64,000 bases of DNA from Faecalicatena absiana (lineage in GTDB: Bacteria; Bacillota; Bacilli; Lactobacillales; Lactobacillaceae). Within the stretch, counting starts at the first letter, position 1. Every line of letters begins with the position of its first letter. Below, in pieces: positions 6,816 to 55,040 of this stretch. A program made the translations under genes and the position numbers. The stretch lies in assembly GCA_017309015.1 (NCBI GenBank), contig JAEDAG010000001.1, forward strand, positions 1 through 64,000, in the 5' to 3' direction. Under the pieces are notes generated by a model. It was not told where the DNA came from. It worked only from the letters and a program-made list of their open reading frames with translations, and did no database searches.

Positions 6816-7110
6816 GATAAAAAAAGCGCTCCGTCCCTCTGTAAAGGACGAAGCGCTTCGTGTTACCACCTTTAGTTCATTCACCGCTTGCACAGCGAAT
6901 CTCACCAACTGTCTCCCCAATTCATCAGGGAACCAGCTTGCTTGTTTAACGAGAGCAACCCCGGAGCCGGCTAAATATCACCGGCCCATATCATTCCAAG
7001 CCCATCTTCGCCAAGTAGCTTCTGTCGCCTTTCACCAACCGGCGACTCTCTGTGAAGAAGCTTGCTCCAGCTACTCTGCTTTTCGAGATAACTTGTATTT
7101 CATTTGATGT
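6816..7110 (-). promoter_or_regulatory. T-box riboswitch, predicted Met specifier, upstream of metQNI
   Basis: Minus-strand leader with a T-box core AAAGGTGGTAACACG (complement of 6859-6873). A strong terminator follows: stem 6823-6836 with 6846-6858 and a T-run at 6816-6823. The distal Stem I hairpin GTCGCC/GGCGAC carries the GGTTGGTGAAA loop. The specifier region reads GCGAAG-ATG-GGC, with ATG as the complement of 7003-7005. Uncharged tRNA-Met would stabilise the antiterminator and turn on the importer. The specifier was assigned by position and by comparison with the ileS leader in this window, not by folding. Confidence 0.85.
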
Positions 7111-13988: not shown

Positions 13989-14273
13989 TTGCCAGCAACC
14001 ATCCCCCACATGAAAGAAATCAAGGTCAGCGACCGGGCCACGATCTTCAACCTCATGGTTGGCCTTAACGGCTACACCATCAGTTCCGGGATCATCTCCA
14101 GCAAGCTGAACGACGACAAGATCGTCGCGATCCCCCTGGACCTGGACGACCCGATTACTTTAGGCGTGGCCTGCCACCAGCATGCCCGCCTGAGCCACCT
14201 GGCACAAAGGTACCTGCAGCTGCTCAAGAACCACATTCGCGGCTATGGCTTCAAGATTATCGGCGAAGACTAA
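13989..14273 (+). pseudogene. Remnant of a LysR-type regulator (C-terminal part only)
   Basis: About 90 codons encode the end of a LysR effector-binding domain. ATIFNLMVGLNGYTISSGI corresponds to the segment where family members sense ligand access, and IPLDLDDPITLGV followed by LSHLAQRYLQLLKNHI to the last strand and helix. The winged-helix DNA-binding half and first effector subdomain are absent. There is no ribosome site before any start, and the preceding gene's terminator lies directly upstream. I read this as a decayed gene rather than a small protein. Assignment to the family rests on pattern recognition. Confidence 0.6.
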
Positions 14274-14306
14274 AAAAACAAGCACCGGCCTCGGTGCTTG
14301 TTTTTT
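14273..14306 (-). terminator. Terminator of oppA, bidirectional
   Basis: A 15-bp stem (14273-14287 with 14292-14306) with loop GCCT, flanked by A6 and T6. It serves oppA on the minus strand and would also end any plus-strand transcript through the LysR remnant. Confidence 0.9.
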
Positions 14307-14317
14307 GCTTGAACGCT

Positions 14318-15967
14318 TTATTGGATATAAGCGTACTTGTAGCTCCACTGGGTCCCGGCATTGTTGTGAATGACGCCCTTGACCTTGCTCTTTTGCAGGT
14401 AGGCCGTGGTCTGCTGGTAGATCGGCGTGATAGCCTGCTCGCTGTTGACCAGGCGGGCCGCAGCCACCAGATCATTCCAGCGTTTTTGCGGGTCATTGGC
14501 GTCTTGGTTCAATGCCCGCTTGATCAGGGCGTCGTACTTGGCGCTGGTCCACTTGCCGTAGTTGTAGGAAGTGCCGCTTTCCATGATCTGCATGAAGGTC
14601 ATCGGGTCGTTGAAGTCCCCGCCCCAGCCGGAAACGTAAACGTCAAAGTCGCCATCGCCGGCCTTGGCATAGGCATTTTTGCCGGGGATGCTGGAAACCT
14701 TGACGCTGATTCCCTTCAAGACCTTGGTCCATTGGGACTGGATGTACTGGGTCAGCGCGTCGGCGTTGGTTGACTCGTTTGAAGCAAGCAGGGTAATCGT
14801 CAGCTTCTTGCTGCCCAGCGCCTTCAAGCCGGCCTTCCAGTGCTTTTCCGCCAGTTTTTCATCGTAGTCGACGGTATTAGCCACTTCCTGCTCGTCAGCG
14901 AAATCCCGCTTGCTTGCTGGATCGTAAGCCAGGCCTGAGGAAACGAAGCCCTTAGGCACGGTTGAGCCATCGCCAAAGACCTTGGTCGTCAAAATCTTGC
15001 GGTCAAGGGCCAGGGACATGGCCAAGCGGATGTCCTTGTTGCTGAGTGCCTTTTTGACCAACGGATCCTTGGCCTTGAAATTGTAGGCCAGAAAGGCTAC
15101 GTAAGAATAGCCGTAGGTTCTGTAGTCCTTGCTGGTCTTAAGCTGCTTGACCTGCTCGCTTGACAGGGGCGTCAAGTCCAGCTTGCCCTGCTGATAGAGC
15201 TGGTAGCCGGTGTTGGTCGTCTTGACCACTTGGTAGTTGATCTTCTGCAGCTTGACGGCCTGCTTGTCCCAGTACTGGCCGTTCTTGACAAACGACCAGC
15301 TGTCATTGGTTCCCTTCCAGCCAGTCATTTTAAACGGGCCGGAATAAAGCATGTACTTGGAGCTGGTCGCGTACTTCTTGCCAGTCTTCTTGATGAAGGC
15401 CTCGTTTTGCGGTCCAAAGAGCGGGTAGGCCATCAGGACCTTAAAGTAGGCGATCGGCTTGTCCAGCTTGACGATGACCGTGTCCTGGCCCTTGGCGGAA
15501 ATACCCAGCGAACTCGGACGCTTTTTGCCCGCGATGATCGCGTCCGCGTTCTTTATGCCTGAAAACAGGTAGGAATATGGGGACGCGGTCTTGGGATTGA
15601 TCGTCCGGCGCCAGGAGTAGACAAAGTCCTGCGCCGTGATCTTTTCGCCATTGGACCATTTGGCATTGGAGCGGATTTTGAACGTCCAGGTCTTCCCGTC
15701 CTTGGAAACTCGGCCTTCCTTTGCCAGGCCAGGTGCCGGCGTCCCCTTCTTGCCCAAGCGGTAGAAGCTTTCAAAGACATTCCCCGTCTGTCCATAGCCC
15801 GTGGCCTTGCTGATGTCGATGGTGTCCAGGGGGGCCGTCGCCGACAGGTTCAAGACCTGCTTGTCCCTACTAGTCTTTTGGGCCGCGCCATTCGTGCCGC
15901 AGGCAGCCAGCAACAAGGCCGCGCTGACGCTCAAGCCGGCGGCCGCCAATTTCTTAAACTTGCTCAT
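14318..15967 (-). CDS. oppA: Oligopeptide-binding lipoprotein, orphan
   Basis: A 549-residue extracellular solute-binding protein of the OppA (SBP family 5) type. The signal peptide ends in the lipobox LLAAC with the lipidated Cys at 23. Family blocks are visible: GLAKEGRVSKDGKTWTFKIR near 80-99, LAMSLALDR near 315-323, and the C-terminal YNYGKWTSAKYDALI. It would deliver peptides to an Opp permease. No oppB, C, D or F lies nearby, so it must use a permease encoded elsewhere. GGAGG (complement of 15975-15979) precedes the ATG. A promoter, structured leader and intrinsic terminator stand upstream, implying conditional read-through. Confidence 0.93.
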   Translation of the reverse strand: MSKFKKLAAAGLSVSAALLLAACGTNGAAQKTSRDKQVLNLSATAPLDTIDISKATGYGQTGNVFESFYRLGKKGTPAPGLAKEGRVSKDGKTWTFKIRSNAKWSNGEKITAQDFVYSWRRTINPKTASPYSYLFSGIKNADAIIAGKKRPSSLGISAKGQDTVIVKLDKPIAYFKVLMAYPLFGPQNEAFIKKTGKKYATSSKYMLYSGPFKMTGWKGTNDSWSFVKNGQYWDKQAVKLQKINYQVVKTTNTGYQLYQQGKLDLTPLSSEQVKQLKTSKDYRTYGYSYVAFLAYNFKAKDPLVKKALSNKDIRLAMSLALDRKILTTKVFGDGSTVPKGFVSSGLAYDPASKRDFADEQEVANTVDYDEKLAEKHWKAGLKALGSKKLTITLLASNESTNADALTQYIQSQWTKVLKGISVKVSSIPGKNAYAKAGDGDFDVYVSGWGGDFNDPMTFMQIMESGTSYNYGKWTSAKYDALIKRALNQDANDPQKRWNDLVAAARLVNSEQAITPIYQQTTAYLQKSKVKGVIHNNAGTQWSYKYAYIQ

Positions 15968-15987
15968 GTTTTTTCCTCCATGCTGAC

Positions 15988-16024
15988 AAAAAAAGCAGCC
16001 GTCTCCAAAGTTGGAAACAGCTGC
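15988..16024 (-). terminator. Intrinsic terminator inside the oppA leader (attenuator)
   Basis: Minus-strand stem (16011-16024 with 15995-16008, about 12-14 pairs including two G-U) is followed by seven T (15988-15994). It lies between the oppA promoter and start codon, about 20 nt before the ATG, so it must be overcome for oppA expression. Confidence 0.8.
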
Positions 16025-16214
16025 TCGTTCTCTGCCATTACTGATAATTTCGCTGATAGTGACCCTTGGCCAGCTACCTGCTTGGCAAATCCGTTTGAAA
16101 GGCTAAATCCAATTTGGGCATCACAAATGAGTCGTATGCGAGACACATACAACATGCTGACATAAGTTGACAGTTTTGTGATGCAAACATTGACTTAGCT
16201 CCTTTCACCGATTT
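16025..16214 (-). promoter_or_regulatory. Structured oppA leader RNA, unassigned class
   Basis: The leader between promoter and terminator contains a perfect 10-bp pair: GCATCACAAA (complement of 16175-16184) with TTTGTGATGC (complement of 16118-16127). A nested GTATG/CATAC hairpin lies inside it and further complementary TTGGC/GCCAA segments follow. It carries no T-box core. I cannot match it to a known riboswitch, and I could not identify a clear antiterminator by eye. Confidence 0.55.
16074..16190 (-). CDS. Possible Cys-rich leader peptide upstream of oppA
   Basis: A 38-codon reading frame starts at an ATG with AAAGGAG (complement of 16199-16205) placed 8 nt upstream, as good a ribosome site as any in the window. 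The peptide starts MFASQNCQLMSACCMCLAYD and has four Cys and four Met, with three Cys in the four codons 13-16, against very few Cys in neighbouring proteins. It ends 50 nt before the terminator stem. It may be a stalling peptide that senses Cys or Met supply before peptide import. This is inference; the frame could also be chance within a structured RNA. Confidence 0.4.
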   Translation of the reverse strand: MFASQNCQLMSACCMCLAYDSFVMPKLDLAFQTDLPSR

Positions 16215-16220
16215 AGTTAA

Positions 16221-16249
16221 ATCATACCGATCAGCTTACTAAAAGTCAA
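16221..16249 (-). promoter_or_regulatory. oppA promoter
   Basis: Minus-strand -35 TTGACT (16244-16249), 17-nt spacer, -10 TATGAT (16221-16226). The -35 lies in the arm of a perfect 9-bp inverted repeat (16241-16249 with 16260-16268, AAAAGTCAA), which may bind a regulator. Confidence 0.75.
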
Positions 16250-16275
16250 TAACTTTTGGTTGACTTTTGTAACTT

Positions 16276-16935
16276 TTATTTTTTCAGGGTCAAGACCTGG
16301 TCAAGCGGGCAGCGGGGCGCGTCATAGCCATTGACGTAGTGGTCCTTTGGATAGCCCAGGCCAATCCCCATAGCAACCCATTGGTCATCAGGGATGCCCA
16401 TGACGGCGCGGACTTCATCCGGGTATTTGACGAATTCATAGGCCGGCATGGAGGATACCCCCAAGCCTTGGGCCGCCAGGGCCAAAGTCTGGCCAAAGGC
16501 CCCCAGGTCATAGATGGACCACTGGTTGGAGATCTTTGGCAAAGTCAGGTAGGCAATGGCTGGGGCATCAAAGAGCTGCTTTTGCAAGGTGACCCCTCTG
16601 AGTTCCTTGAGTTCTGGCGTGTTCAGGTATGCGGCCGTGGCCTCGTTGTGCTTGGCCATGTTGGCCTGCGGGAAGGGATCCCAGTCCGTGCGGTGGGTCG
16701 TTGGCCAGTCAGGCGCGGCTTCCCGGCCACTGGCAACATTGTCCAGGTGCCTTTGCCGCAGGGCCTTCAGGCTCTCCCCAGTCGCGAGATAGACCCGCCA
16801 AGGCTGGGAGTCAACCCAGGATGGAGCTCTTTGCGCCAAAGCGACGATTTCGCGCAAGGTTGCCTCTGGCACTTCCTTGTCCTTGTCAAACCAGCGGATG
16901 CTGCGGCGGTTCTTGATTGCTTCAATTGCGTCCAT
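16276..16935 (-). CDS. Nitroreductase family protein
   Basis: A 219-residue FMN-dependent oxidoreductase of the nitroreductase superfamily, cytosolic, probably a homodimer using NAD(P)H. The N-terminal RRSIRWF motif binds FMN phosphate, APSWVDSQPWRVY is the classical loop near 37-49, and the C-terminal AMGIGLGYP motif is present. The physiological substrate cannot be predicted. A promoter (-35 TTGCGT at 17002-17007, -10 TATATT at 16978-16983, 18-nt spacer, minus strand) lies upstream and is divergent from the small-protein gene. The stop codon is 27 bp before the oppA -35. Confidence 0.88.
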   Translation of the reverse strand: MDAIEAIKNRRSIRWFDKDKEVPEATLREIVALAQRAPSWVDSQPWRVYLATGESLKALRQRHLDNVASGREAAPDWPTTHRTDWDPFPQANMAKHNEATAAYLNTPELKELRGVTLQKQLFDAPAIAYLTLPKISNQWSIYDLGAFGQTLALAAQGLGVSSMPAYEFVKYPDEVRAVMGIPDDQWVAMGIGLGYPKDHYVNGYDAPRCPLDQVLTLKK

Positions 16936-16991
16936 TGCTTGCCTCTTTCTTTTTCATGACGATGCTTACTTTTCGTTAATATAGCACAGAA

Positions 16992-17021
16992 TTGGCTTTT
17001 CACGCAAAGAATCGCTATAAT
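16992..17021 (+). promoter_or_regulatory. Promoter of the 51-residue protein gene
   Basis: Plus-strand -35 TTGGCT (16992-16997), 18-nt spacer, consensus -10 TATAAT (17016-17021). It overlaps the oppositely directed nitroreductase promoter. Confidence 0.7.
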
Positions 17022-17054
17022 TGATTCAAAAGCTGACCAAAGGAGGAGAAACAG

Positions 17055-17210
17055 ATGGGCTTGACCTTTAGAAACAACAATGACCTGGACCGCTTGTTCG
17101 ACAAGTTTGCCAGCGTCCCTGACCCAAAGAAGACGCCAAAAGGCGCGGGCAAGGGCAAGGACGCAAAAGACACCAAGAAAGACGATAAAGCCGCGGACGA
17201 ACACAAGTAA
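17055..17210 (+). CDS. Small highly charged protein, 51 residues (SPJ_0845-like)
   Basis: A short gene with an almost perfect ribosome site (AAAGGAGGAG, 17039-17048) 6 nt before the ATG, a promoter about 30 bp upstream and a terminator directly after. The protein starts MGLTFRNNNDLDRLFDKFAS and continues with a Lys/Asp/Gly-rich tail likely to be disordered. The N-terminal pattern, hydrophobic residues around NNDLDRLFDKF, resembles the small SPJ_0845-type family of streptococci and lactobacilli as I remember it. No function is known. Strong signals at both ends make this a real gene. Confidence 0.8.
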   Translation: MGLTFRNNNDLDRLFDKFASVPDPKKTPKGAGKGKDAKDTKKDDKAADEHK

Positions 17211-17217
17211 GCTGCCT

Positions 17218-17244
17218 GACCATCAACTGATGGTCTCTTTTTTT
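17218..17244 (+). terminator. Terminator of the 51-residue protein gene
   Basis: An 8-bp stem GACCATCA/TGATGGTC (17218-17235) followed by a T-rich tract. Confidence 0.85.
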
Positions 17245-17375
17245 GCCATTTTTTGACCTCTAATTTTTTCTAAAGGCAGGTAAAAATTATGCGTTTTCAT
17301 CCCCGCCATCACTACATTTAGGCTAAAATAAAAATTAGAAGAAGCAATCGACTATGCGTTAGGAAGTGAGCGGCA

Positions 17376-18989
17376 ATGGACAATGACAACAGCAACCTGC
17401 TGACCTATTTGGAATGGCGTGGCGACATCCCCCTGGACAAGTCGCCATTCAATGAGATCGACGCCTTGGTGCTGGCAATTTTTTCATATTTGAACTTAGA
17501 GGACTACATTCCGGCGGGGAAGAAATACGTTACTCTGGACAGTGCCGCCAAGAAATACTTCGCCAAAGAAGAGCATGAGCGCGACGCGTCCCAGTACCAG
17601 CAGCTCTTCCGCCTGATGTCGGAGGCTGACCGCTTCAAAAAGGCCAAGCTGTCGCACTTTAACACGACTTTGACCGACCAAAGCCAATTCAGCGCCGTCA
17701 AGGTGGTCCTGGAGGATGATACCCACTTCGTGGCCTTCCGCGGCACTGACGACACCCTGGTGGGCTGGAAGGAAGACTTTGAGATTTCCTTTAAGGAGAC
17801 CAGGGCACAGACGATGAGCGTCAGGTACATGACCAAGATCCTGAACGAAGACAGCGCCTCATATATCTTGGGGGGCCACTCCAAGGGCGGCAACCTGGCC
17901 GAGTACGCGGCCATTCACCTGGCCAGCCAGTACCATGACCGGATCAAGGCCGTCTATACTTTTGACAGTCCTGGCCTGGCCGATGAAGTGTCCGGCGACT
18001 GCAACGGCGACTATCTCAAGCGAATTCTGCACCGCTATGTGCCAGACTACTCCATCATTGGCCGCTTGTTTGAGCCAAAGGACATTGAGCCTACGATCGT
18101 CTATTCAACCAACGGCAACCTGGCCCAGCACGACACCTACTCCTGGCAGATCAAGGGCCACCAGTTCGTGACCCGCAAGCGGCCCAACTCAGAATCGCGA
18201 ATCTACAACCAGTTGATCAGCCAATGGATCGGTGAAGCCAAGCTGGACGAGCGTGAGGCCTTGACCAACGACCTGTTTGATGCCCTAGCTGCCAGTGGGT
18301 CAACCAAGATCAACCAGCTGGATAAGAACGGTTTTGGCGGCTTTGGGGCCATCCTTTTGTCAGTGGCCAACTCCTCCAGAAGAACCAAGTTCGTCCTGGG
18401 CAACCTGTTCAGCTCCATCTGGAGAATGATCAAGGACCAGCAGATCGGTTCGGCCCTCTTCTCCAGAGACAGCCTGACCGGCTGGCTCTTGGTCCTGGCC
18501 GGCATCATCAGCTTGACCGCGCCTAACTATGCCTTTAAAGCCTTCGGCGTTCTGGTAGCCGCTGGCGGGATCATGTTCAGCTTCAACCATATCCTGAAAG
18601 TTTCCGTCTCCGCCTTTAAGCCCCAGCAGAAGCGCTTTTTCATCATCACCTACCTGATCCTGTTCGCGGTCTCGGTTGCCCTTTTGTCCAACAACCAGCT
18701 GCTGATCTTCCTGGCCCACTACTTCCTGGGGATCTTCCTCCTCTTTTATGCCTACGGCCGCAGCCGGAAGATCATCCTCCACAAGGAGCATGGCATTTTC
18801 CGGATGATCATTACGGGGGCTGAAGCCCTGATTTCCTTTGCCCTGGGCATCGTGGTGATCATCAATCCGGAATACTTCAACCACCGGTCAATCATCATCA
18901 TCGGCGCCCTTCTGATTGCTTATGGGGCCTTCAAGCTGCTTGGCGAGCTCTTCACCCACCGGCCAAAGATGCCAAAACGGCACCGGTAA
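17376..18989 (+). CDS. Lipase-like (Mbeg1/DUF2974) hydrolase fused to a membrane domain
   Basis: A 537-residue protein of two parts. Residues 1-290 form an alpha/beta-hydrolase of the Mbeg1-like/DUF2974 type with the nucleophile elbow GGHSKGGN (Ser169) and FRGTDDTLVGWKEDF near 121-135, as in class 3 lipases. Residues 370-525 hold about six hydrophobic segments arranged in repeats, like DUF308 membrane proteins. It would be a membrane-tethered esterase or lipase facing the cytoplasm; there is no signal peptide, so the side is inferred. The ribosome site (AGGAAGTGAG) is mediocre. The substrate is unknown. Confidence 0.8.
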   Translation: MDNDNSNLLTYLEWRGDIPLDKSPFNEIDALVLAIFSYLNLEDYIPAGKKYVTLDSAAKKYFAKEEHERDASQYQQLFRLMSEADRFKKAKLSHFNTTLTDQSQFSAVKVVLEDDTHFVAFRGTDDTLVGWKEDFEISFKETRAQTMSVRYMTKILNEDSASYILGGHSKGGNLAEYAAIHLASQYHDRIKAVYTFDSPGLADEVSGDCNGDYLKRILHRYVPDYSIIGRLFEPKDIEPTIVYSTNGNLAQHDTYSWQIKGHQFVTRKRPNSESRIYNQLISQWIGEAKLDEREALTNDLFDALAASGSTKINQLDKNGFGGFGAILLSVANSSRRTKFVLGNLFSSIWRMIKDQQIGSALFSRDSLTGWLLVLAGIISLTAPNYAFKAFGVLVAAGGIMFSFNHILKVSVSAFKPQQKRFFIITYLILFAVSVALLSNNQLLIFLAHYFLGIFLLFYAYGRSRKIILHKEHGIFRMIITGAEALISFALGIVVIINPEYFNHRSIIIIGALLIAYGAFKLLGELFTHRPKMPKRHR

Positions 18990-22515: not shown

Positions 22516-22597
22516 TGTGTTTAACAAGTGATAATGTCTTAAGTATTAACAAAGGAAAATGTCTGGCATAATCTCCATATATCGGAGGTTACAGACA

Positions 22598-23989
22598 ATG
22601 AAGAAAGTTAGGTTAACTATGAAATACGAAGAACAATACAAAGTCATTAAAGAGTTGGTTGATCATGGCGGGAACAAGAAAAGAGCTGCACTGATCTTAG
22701 GCATCTCTGTCAGACAGCTAAACAGAAGAATTAACCAGTATCGAAGCAAAGGAAAAGCGGCCTTTGTTCATGGGAACACTGGCCGCTCACCTGTTAATTG
22801 TCTCACCACAGAAATTAACAAACAAATTGTAACCCTATATCGTACCAAATATCAAGACTGCAACTTGACCCACTTTGTCGAGTTGCTCGAGGAGATCGAA
22901 CACATTTCTGTTTCCTACACCAAGGTCTACAACCTGCTCAAAGACAACTACATCCTTTCGCCCAAACCTTGGAGACAGACAAAGCGGAAAATGGCCAAAA
23001 AGAAGTGGTATCGGGATCACCCAAAACAGGCTGCCAAAGTTTCTGAAGTGGTTATCGATCATCAAATAGCTATAGAAGATGCTCATCCACGTCACGAGCG
23101 CTGTAAATACTTCGGCGAAGAAATCCAAATGGACGCCTCTTCTCTGCTTTGGTTTGGCGATAAGAAGGCTCACCTGCACCTGGCAATAGACAACGCCACA
23201 GGCAACCTGGTTGGCGCCTACTTCGACTGGCAGGAGACCCTGAAAGCCTATTACCACGTCTATGAGCAGATTCTCGTGAATTATGGCATTCCTCTTAGAT
23301 TCAAAACCGACAATCGAACCGTTTTTAATTATGAGACGGCTAAAACCAAAGCAGAGCACAAAGACGTTCTTACGCAATTTGGATATGCCTGCAAGACCTT
23401 GGGAACAGATATCGTAACCACTAGTGTCTCACAGGCCAAGGGCATGGTGGAACGGGCAAACCAGACTGTACAAAGCCGTTTGAAGCCCGAACTGAGGCTT
23501 CACAATATAACTACAATCGAAGATGCCAACAAGTATCTGCGGGAGATTTTTGTGCCGAAATTCAACGACAAGTTCGGGCAGGATATTCACAGATTTGAAT
23601 CAGTTTTCGCAGACAGCCCTGACAACGAGAAGATCAACTATACGCTAGCGGTATTGTCTCCACGTACGTTTGACAGTGGATCAGCCATCTCCTACAAGAA
23701 TCACTATTATCAAGCTACAGACGCCTCAAACAAGCTTATCTGCTTTGCCAAAGGCACTAAATGCCTGGTTATTCAAGCATTAGATGGTCAATTGTTGGTC
23801 ACCGTTGACGAGAAAGTGTATGCCTTGACCGAGATTCCGAAGAATGCCAGAGTCTCACCAGATATCGATTTTGAGACCGAGAAAAAGAAACAGCGGAAAA
23901 AGTATATTCCACCGATGTCCCATCCTTGGAAGCGTACTTCGTTCATCGCGCAGCAGAACAAAGCGCACAAGTATCACAAATTCACATAA
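22598..23989 (+). CDS. Transposase, ISNCY (IS1202-like), DDE type
   Basis: A 463-residue transposase. The N-terminal helix-turn-helix (NKKRAALILGISVRQLNRRI, about 25-44) would bind the terminal repeats. The integrase-like catalytic core has candidate acidic residues in EIQMDAS (near 182), RFKTDNRTVF (near 246) and GMVERANQ (near 296). I chose the ATG at 22598, with GGAGG (22584-22588) 9 nt upstream, over an in-frame start at 22559 that precedes the ribosome site. The frame is intact with no stops, so the element may be active. Confidence 0.92.
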   Translation: MKKVRLTMKYEEQYKVIKELVDHGGNKKRAALILGISVRQLNRRINQYRSKGKAAFVHGNTGRSPVNCLTTEINKQIVTLYRTKYQDCNLTHFVELLEEIEHISVSYTKVYNLLKDNYILSPKPWRQTKRKMAKKKWYRDHPKQAAKVSEVVIDHQIAIEDAHPRHERCKYFGEEIQMDASSLLWFGDKKAHLHLAIDNATGNLVGAYFDWQETLKAYYHVYEQILVNYGIPLRFKTDNRTVFNYETAKTKAEHKDVLTQFGYACKTLGTDIVTTSVSQAKGMVERANQTVQSRLKPELRLHNITTIEDANKYLREIFVPKFNDKFGQDIHRFESVFADSPDNEKINYTLAVLSPRTFDSGSAISYKNHYYQATDASNKLICFAKGTKCLVIQALDGQLLVTVDEKVYALTEIPKNARVSPDIDFETEKKKQRKKYIPPMSHPWKRTSFIAQQNKAHKYHKFT

Positions 23990-54783: not shown

Positions 54784-55040
54784 AAAAAAGTCTCGTCCCC
54801 AATAGGACGAGACAATCGTGGTACCACCTAAATTGGGCCTCAAAGAGACCCCGCTTGTATCCGCGTATCGTGCGGACCACCGGTCAAACCAATTGGCAGC
54901 CGATCGCTCGCTGGACTATTGTCAGCCTCGCACCCTCGCTGACTCGCTGCTCGCGTCCTTGAGCTTACTGTCGGTTTGCTTGTTATTCCAAGTTAAGCTG
55001 ACAGGCGCTACCGTTTCTTTGTAGCGTCTGTCTACAGTAA
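54784..55040 (-). promoter_or_regulatory. T-box riboswitch, predicted Ile (ATC) specifier, upstream of ileS
   Basis: Minus-strand T-box core AGGTGGTACCACG (complement of 54817-54829), then a terminator: stem 54790-54798 with 54805-54813 and a T-run at 54784-54789. Distal Stem I hairpin GTCAGC/GCTGAC with loop GAGGGTGCGAG. The specifier region reads GCGAGCG-ATC-GGC, with ATC as the complement of 54902-54904, aligning with GCGAAG-ATG-GGC in the metQ leader. An extra 12-bp hairpin (55000-55011 with 55021-55032) precedes Stem I. Confidence 0.88.

Follow-up and report, generated by a model that had tools for sequence, protein, structure and literature searches.

A probable cysteine-responsive leader-peptide attenuator upstream of oppA and a family of related leaders in Lactobacillaceae

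In Bacillota, tRNA sensing before amino-acid genes is mostly credited to T-boxes, and attenuation through leader peptides is thought to be rare, at least in the account given in PMC2965389. Cysteine T-box leaders, such as that described for the glnP2 operon of L. paracasei (PMC6004538), couple tRNA charging to terminator read-through upstream of genes related to cysteine. The oppA leader reported here would do likewise, but it has no T-box match and sensing would go via translation of a leader peptide. A predicted case of such attenuation replacing a T-box in bacilli is that of the His leader peptides preceding hisS and hisZ, likened here by their description (PMC2965389); these differ in the amino acid, histidine, and in preceding tRNA synthetase genes. 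For cysteine, uORFC-8-2 of Rhodobacterales is described as an upstream frame with tandem Cys codons, usually codons 14 and 15, located in a first stem and followed by an intrinsic terminator, and ribosome-mediated attenuation has been proposed for it (PMC8632094). By that description, on which the likeness to the oppA leader rests, uORFC-8-2 belongs to Alphaproteobacteria and precedes cysS only, whereas the present leaders occur in Lactobacillaceae before several import and synthesis operons, carry CCC or CCxCC motifs, and form a hairpin that includes the Shine-Dalgarno of the frame. Mycobacterial polycysteine short ORFs (Canestrari et al. 2020, via PMC13236596; predicted in PMC1262725) likewise lie upstream of cysteine genes, with Cys-codon runs and cysteine-responsive attenuation. 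As presented in these two sources, they are leaderless, lack a conserved terminator hairpin and are suspected of Rho-dependent termination, in contrast with the oppA leader, which possesses a Shine-Dalgarno frame and an intrinsic terminator. The principle is a known one, while the leader family is apparently undescribed: no earlier description of a Cys leader-peptide family was found in the open-licence PMC full texts, the domain of the search, and Rfam 15 gives no match.

The oppA leader is very likely a cysteine-responsive, ribosome-mediated transcription attenuator operating via a Cys-rich leader peptide. It displays the features of this class, namely a short frame, a cluster of Cys codons, and an intrinsic terminator between the frame and the gene. 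A downstream gene in cysteine metabolism is found for the cysK-type operons of the family (see below) and is inferred for oppA. Likewise, we infer that the leader is translated, that ribosomes stall in it, that a switch follows, and that OppA imports Cys-containing peptides.

The window, i.e., the whole 64,000 nt stretch of DNA analysed, carries the promoter, leader, terminator, and oppA on its minus strand. OppA is a 549 aa protein (14318..15967, minus strand) assigned by profile to solute-binding protein family 5 (SBP_bac_5), and the leader between a promoter-like site and the gene is ~230-250 nt long. The promoter (16221..16249, minus strand) combines a -35 TTGACT (16249-16244), a 17-nt spacer, and a -10 TATGAT (16226-16221). 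The original prediction had called it a consensus promoter; it does match the consensus at 10 of 12 positions, but such sites are no more frequent than chance in 14000-17400 (2, against 1.5 +/- 1.1 in shuffles), and the promoter alone does not stand out. By eye, a -35 of the TTGAC type is also seen upstream of related leaders. The leader frame (16074..16190, minus strand), MFASQNCQLMSACCMCLAYDSFVMPKLDLAFQTDLPSR, counts 38 codons plus a stop, and follows a Shine-Dalgarno, AAAGGAG (16199..16205, minus strand), that is mostly paired within the hairpin P1 described below. Cys codons occupy positions 7 (16172-16170), 13-14 (16154-16149), and 16 (16145-16143). The ribosome site, the frame length, three Cys within codons 13-16, and the four Met in total had been read in the same way from the sequence by the original prediction, and all are borne out. 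The strong terminator that it announced is also present: a stem formed by 16026-16012 and 16007-15993, together with a U tract (15987..16026, minus strand), at -24.8 kcal/mol. Between P1 and the terminator, a local hairpin, P3, is predicted (16052..16081, minus strand), and by eye a hairpin is predicted at this place in most of the 22 oppA leaders introduced below. Taken as a whole, the leader (258 nt) has a predicted folding energy of -92.7 kcal/mol; its shuffles average -64 +/- 4.7 (z -6.05), none of the 200 being as good. A T-box (RF00230) was rejected for the window leader, which its covariance model does not match, in agreement with the earlier remark that no T-box core is visible.

The hairpin P1 (16097..16206, minus strand), which emerges from predicted folds and covariation, encloses the Cys codons. 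Its helices pair 16206-16202 with 16101-16097, 16199-16192 with 16109-16102, 16191-16189 with 16113-16111, and, in the upper part, 16184-16175 with 16127-16118. The last of these is the perfect 10-bp pairing noticed from the start, and it is exact. What had been overlooked is that this helix caps a more extended hairpin, P1, whose lower part (16206-16189 with 16113-16097) pairs most of the leader frame's own Shine-Dalgarno, and that a tip hairpin, P2 (16131..16153, minus strand; 16153-16144 with 16140-16131), overlaps the Cys codons 13, 14, and 16. The P2 pairs are kept across leaders, as the two tip helices of the larger alignment.

A first MAFFT/RNAalifold consensus of 20 leaders contained 13 pairs only; P1 was then written by hand from single-sequence folds and tested. 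On these 20 MAFFT-aligned leaders, 80.8% of the cells are paired, whereas sliding the partners lowers this share to 32-50%; both-side changes affect 37 cells, the shuffles giving 16.5, and neither value was matched in 500 shuffles. The number of pairs showing a both-side change is not unusual in this set (11 against 9.1, reached in 71 of the 500 shuffles). When 63 distinct leaders are aligned so as to fit the model, 82.2% of the cells are paired (32-48% when slid), both-side changes affect 343 cells (116 in shuffles), and 26 pairs show such changes against 20.8, the counts from alignments A3 and A4 leaning towards P1 because the structure comes from the same sequences and the alignments were fitted to it. 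Of the 65 loci given to A4, 64 were aligned, L201 having no match, and the near-duplicates L099, L147, L178, L179, and L181 had been excluded beforehand.

Conservation of the frame was assessed on a set chosen by protein only. A search for OppA in 75 genomes of the genus yielded 23 loci with at least 62% identity, the window included. At 22 of these 23 loci, a Shine-Dalgarno precedes a frame containing at least three Cys, for example MLARQAQLQANECCCYSNIYLSCSNV, MLARTNKMQNRECCCTSCSLFVVLNVQCVS, and, in L032, MFAMQENQTVCVCCMSLMSYDCFVLPKLDLAQTK; the conservation of frame and Cys codons in relatives, suggested earlier as a check, is observed at orthologous loci. When the same rule is applied throughout, requiring an ATG, a Shine-Dalgarno, a length of 15-60 codons, and three Cys within eight codons, 22 of the 23 upstream regions pass, against a mean of 0.19 and a maximum of 1 in dinucleotide shuffles. 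Where the ribosome site is followed by two in-frame ATGs, the start was chosen by hand; the frame of L035 was corrected. In all 22 leaders, the region of the ribosome site and start is predicted to pair, over 15-22 bases, with a segment around +61 to +98 that lies upstream of, at, or just beyond the stop of the frame. Direct DNA similarity (E <= 1e-11) reaches just 4 of the 74 other genomes of the genus, at 70-73% identity, and no DNA match to the window leader was found in plasmid records. Pausing at either Cys or Met codons had been envisaged; by eye, Cys forms the recurring cluster, and Met was discarded as the signal, no Met cluster being seen across the leader frames.

Two loci deserve a separate mention. 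L051, the single oppA ortholog lacking a leader, retains what by eye is a TTGACAAAAAGTAAG-type promoter immediately upstream of the gene, and is perhaps a natural loss of the attenuator. In genome G008 (L174), two tandem oppA copies, 55% and 62% identical to that of the window, each have their own, different Cys leader.

A stable covarying structure followed by a terminator is also what a riboswitch for cysteine or a related compound would present, the frame being then incidental. The covarying part, however, is a long hairpin whose lower helix changes freely in sequence, and the most constant letters across 20 leaders are the start codon, the letters of the Cys codons, and the TTTG of an upper P1 helix, so that there is no sign of a junction built around a conserved unpaired core. 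The start of the Cys cluster moves between codons 8 and 16 while the frame stays open, and a Cys frame is present at 22 of 23 loci where 0.2 would be expected by chance. Rfam adds no candidate: Rfam 15 shows no riboswitch or leader family at gathering threshold in the window, the oppA leader included, a permissive scan of 451 bases returns five matches at chance level (best E 0.45), and over the leaders of 13 loci the sole match is a tRNA in L194. A riboswitch is hence most unlikely, and a ligand-binding RNA or a protein-controlled leader, both left standing by the original prediction, are less likely than attenuation by a translating ribosome.

This attenuation would proceed as follows. Transcription would start near 16214, and a ribosome would then begin the Cys-rich frame. 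With enough Cys-tRNA, the ribosome would pass the Cys cluster and reach the stop; segment 1 (the Shine-Dalgarno and start region, 16206-16189) would then pair with segment 2 (16113-16097) to form P1, and segment 3 (the terminator 5' arm, 16026-16012) would pair with segment 4, leading to termination before oppA. When Cys-tRNA is scarce, the ribosome would stall at codons 13-16, at the tip of P1, and hold this hairpin open. Segment 2 would then be available for segment 3 (16112-16097 with 16026-16011), the terminator would not form, and oppA would be transcribed. If the frame is not translated, P1 would form and oppA would be off. Since a single stalled ribosome leaves the 5' arm of the lower P1 uncovered, opening of P1 would require steric hindrance or a second ribosome.

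No antiterminator had been found by eye in the original prediction, and a candidate can now be proposed. On the basis of sequence and predicted pairing, the antiterminator is probably formed by the 3' arm of P1 (TTGGA, TAGC, and TTC; 16097..16112, minus strand) as its 5' strand and by the terminator 5' arm (16011..16026, minus strand) as its 3' strand, 16112-16097 pairing with 16026-16011. The candidate is a family-level result applied to the window leader, because the window figures alone are not significant: at -11.7 kcal/mol, its pairing is no better than that of dinucleotide shuffles (z +0.42, p 0.62), and weakly better than that with swapped partners (share 0.10). The family was represented by 33 leaders, obtained by clustering at 75% identity the 68 collected ones (66 Cys, 2 Arg). 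All 68 possess a terminator, and a coarser scan finds a hairpin of -13 kcal/mol or below before a T run in 32 of the 33 representatives, against 7 of 165 shuffles. In the 68 leaders, randomising everything that lies between stall site and terminator gives a mean z of -0.85 only. In regions that were set after this result had been seen, native segments 2 and 3 pair better than swapped partners (mean share of others as good 0.215, rank p 8e-6) and better than when segment 2 is dinucleotide-shuffled (mean z -1.46, p 2e-7), and the midpoint of the best partner of the terminator arm falls at +68 to +100, within the P1 3' arm, in 30 of 33 representatives against 14.7 expected. Folds of the stalled state, in which the 5' side was masked to 14 nt beyond the first Cys codon of the cluster, show that pairing of the terminator 5' arm, whatever the partner, increases in 19 of the 22 oppA leaders, in several of them slightly, and decreases in L032-L034; the usual partner of this arm is the P1 3' arm.

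The pairing of the frame's Shine-Dalgarno within P1 may evoke translational control, in which the leader would act just by masking ribosome sites and the terminator would be the regular 3' end of a small RNA. The sequestered site, however, belongs to the leader frame and not to oppA, the terminator stands before the gene in every collected leader, and high read coverage is reported for the 5' UTR of the L. paracasei cysK2-ctl1-cysE2 operon (PMC6004538). Translational control is extremely unlikely, and the leader-peptide attenuator remains the preferred reading.

The leader family extends well beyond oppA. Trained on 20 of the 22 oppA leaders, a covariance model recovered all 22 as well as new places at weak scores, with frames such as MLNFELSAELCATCCLCCNKLFDMPKVQ and MAYHQSLTMYNCCPCCKNYNILFDVPVLK. 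Once rebuilt, the model identified 52 places in the 75 genomes of the genus; of the 51 read (all but that in G049), 41 have a frame with three or more Cys in eight codons, 2 have an Arg-rich frame, and 8 have neither. At E up to 0.004, all 39 places have a Cys frame, 27 of them having trained the model. Among 201 genomes of the family, 30 places were identified, of which 23 have a Cys frame, one (L162) two Cys, and 6 none. A search of 295 genomes of the order returned 8 places outside the family, one of which (L194) has a Cys frame. The large searches scored just 10-53 candidates per genome, so that absence from them means little. As the models contain a TGTTGT consensus, the Cys frames among their matches are partly built in; the ribosome site, the open frame, the terminator, and the gene context are not. 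Cys leaders are found in nine genera of the family (g1, g4, g5, g6, g15, g16, g23, g31, and g38).

Three or more Cys in eight codons are present in 32 of the 33 representatives, a count that is partly circular outside the oppA set. The cluster starts at codons 8 to 16, the recurrent motifs are CCxCC and CCC, and Cys makes up 13% of the residues of these peptides. In-frame TGN triplets number 101 TGT, 42 TGC, and 3 TGG, against 110 TGY, 51 TGA, and 25 TGG in the other two frames; the absence of in-frame TGA is definitional and most leaders had been retained because of their Cys; the independent part is the low number of TGG. Two leaders of the same shape (L180 in G060 and L181 in G004) harbor instead an Arg-rich frame, MLESQSALTVELRRRHQNDGLFVILNYGVRRS, followed by a terminator and a gene whose product looks by eye like a lipoprotein. 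They may represent a sister leader for arginine; their peptides are identical and therefore give no independent conservation.

The genes located behind the Cys leaders are diverse. Ten were named by profile: OppA-type SBP_bac_5 proteins (L103, L105, L106, and L116), amino-acid ABC permeases (L098, L100, and L104), an SDF symporter (L095), and members of the HTS/MetA family (L108 and L112). For the remainder, the identification was made by eye from the start of the protein. A metA-cysK pair lies near the Cys leaders of G147 and G272; in G147 it is followed by a binding protein whose best model, below cut-off, is cystine-binding, while the binding proteins of two other operons score best with the Lys/Arg/Orn type. 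In G608, a cysK-like gene (below cut-off) is accompanied by a cystathionine gamma-synthase, a third frame, and luxS, and the leader L194, from another family of the order, precedes a cysK-like operon. No relative of the SDF symporter was found in the window genome, in a search run without positive control. Leaders before genes of cysteine synthesis and transport, together with the conserved frame and Cys codons, support the idea of attenuation by ribosome pausing with which the original prediction began.

Among 21 OppA-type genes behind Cys leaders (L103 to L191; the oppA set, L180, and L208 being set aside), 16, including L174 of the same genus, are 53-67% identical to the window OppA, and 5 (four of g31, and L191) are 36-39% identical. 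The OppA paralogs of the window genome, among those listed, do not exceed 47%. The leader family, if the attenuator reading is correct, would offer a substrate prediction for one OppA subfamily, that with 53-67% identity to the window protein.

Published data exist for one operon type of this kind. The operon cysK2-ctl1-cysE2 of L. paracasei FAM18149 is reported to be upregulated without cysteine (PMC6004538), the tabulated values being ~3, taken here as log2, between cysteine- and methionine-deficient media. The same report mentions a high coverage of its 5' UTR, a Rho-independent terminator, and no T-box; its authors propose cis and antisense control, and the part dealing with this operon names no sensor. 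If the attenuator reading is right, a Cys leader is expected before such cysK operons. With the CysK-like protein of L194, 37 plasmid records were found, of which 4, from strains other than FAM18149, were read. Those of L. paracasei, L. rhamnosus, and L. casei harbor cysK, a PLP enzyme, and a serine acetyltransferase; the fourth copy is on an L. fermentum plasmid. All four display a Shine-Dalgarno and a CCC frame (MTQSMFNAINCCCRTTRFWRCSAC, MSQSMFNAINCCCRTTRFWRCSAC, MTQSMFNAINCCCRTTLFWRCSAC, and MTNVFTKQAVCCCGARQLRGSTLWRSLKRG), behind which lies a GC-rich inverted repeat with T's, whereas 0.02 of 4 would have such a frame in shuffles; being near-identical, the first three are taken as a single lineage. 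The palindrome published for FAM18149 corresponds to this inverted repeat, the L. rhamnosus copy being exact in arms and spacing, and is presented in PMC6004538 as related to one proposed by Liu et al. 2012. At the level of sequence, the prediction of a Cys leader before cysK operons of the cysteine-repressed type has held. The leader is also a candidate sensor for the L. paracasei cysteine response, to which PMC6004538, in the sections concerned, assigns none.

These operons bear on a further explanation, according to which the peptide product itself acts through its thiols, as a metal, redox, or oxidative-stress sensor, rather than by reporting Cys-tRNA. CCxCC and CCC do resemble metal- or redox-binding runs, and the Cys content of the peptides is high, at the 13% given above. 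Judged by eye, however, the parts of the peptides outside the Cys cluster vary from genus to genus; genes for cysteine synthesis figure among those behind the leaders, and the operon type for which expression has been published goes up in cysteine-free medium (PMC6004538, as tabulated for FAM18149). A thiol-acting peptide is accordingly very unlikely, and control by Cys-tRNA through attenuation is favored.

A second Cys frame is found in the window genome itself. Upstream of its metA-cysK pair, AAGGAGG precedes a Cys-rich frame identified by eye, MFNNALQNMNFVNTCCCGLCLKQSTVWRTINSN, and an inverted repeat, AAGACGCGAAA...TTTCGCGTCTT, with T's lies after the frame and before metA. With a z of -4.75 this stretch is unusually stable, but that terminator is absent from its minimum-energy fold, as is a family-type P1, and none of the covariance models matches it; frame and position, rather than the fold, make it a Cys leader. 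The L. paracasei gene annotated metA encodes a serine acetyltransferase according to PMC6004538, citing Bogicevic 2016, and metA-cysK is therefore plausibly a cysteine operon. The presence of this pair also makes doubtful the premise of an auxotrophic bacterium on which the original prediction had leaned.

T-boxes coexist with these leaders. The window genome has 22 T-box candidates, 4 of them over cut-off and none at the oppA leader. One of the four (C18:24508-24775; L123, L208) is located directly upstream of an oppA paralog with 40% identity, so that members of one gene family within a single genome seem to rely on both types of tRNA sensing. Within the window, two T-box-like matches occur on the minus strand, at 6841-7095 (87.0 bits) and 54800-54985 (43.6 bits), both missing from the gathering-score scan because they are below the 93-bit cut-off. 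More broadly, one may propose an undescribed cysteine-starvation regulon of Lactobacillales, in which hairpin-enclosed CCC/CCxCC attenuators act in place of T-boxes or regulators, are exchanged with T-boxes upstream of genes of the same families, and have sister leaders for other amino acids, such as the Arg-rich one of two genomes, its targets being peptide-binding proteins, amino-acid ABC transporters, symporters, and cysteine synthesis operons; the odds for this proposal seem to us evenly balanced. A conserved family of such Cys leaders would explain how lactobacilli tune peptide and amino-acid uptake to cysteine.

Two further observations were made. In the window, a 476-aa frame on the plus strand (22559-23989), near clpX and tig, has by eye the look of an integrase-type transposase. 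Lastly, an element AGTAA(G/C), or its reverse complement, often occurs as TTGACAAAAAGTAAG at the -35 hexamer, as in the window at 16249-16230. It is present upstream of 20 of the 33 representative leaders, against ~4.5 in shuffles or random stretches, and is perhaps the site of a common regulator or a promoter habit of the family.
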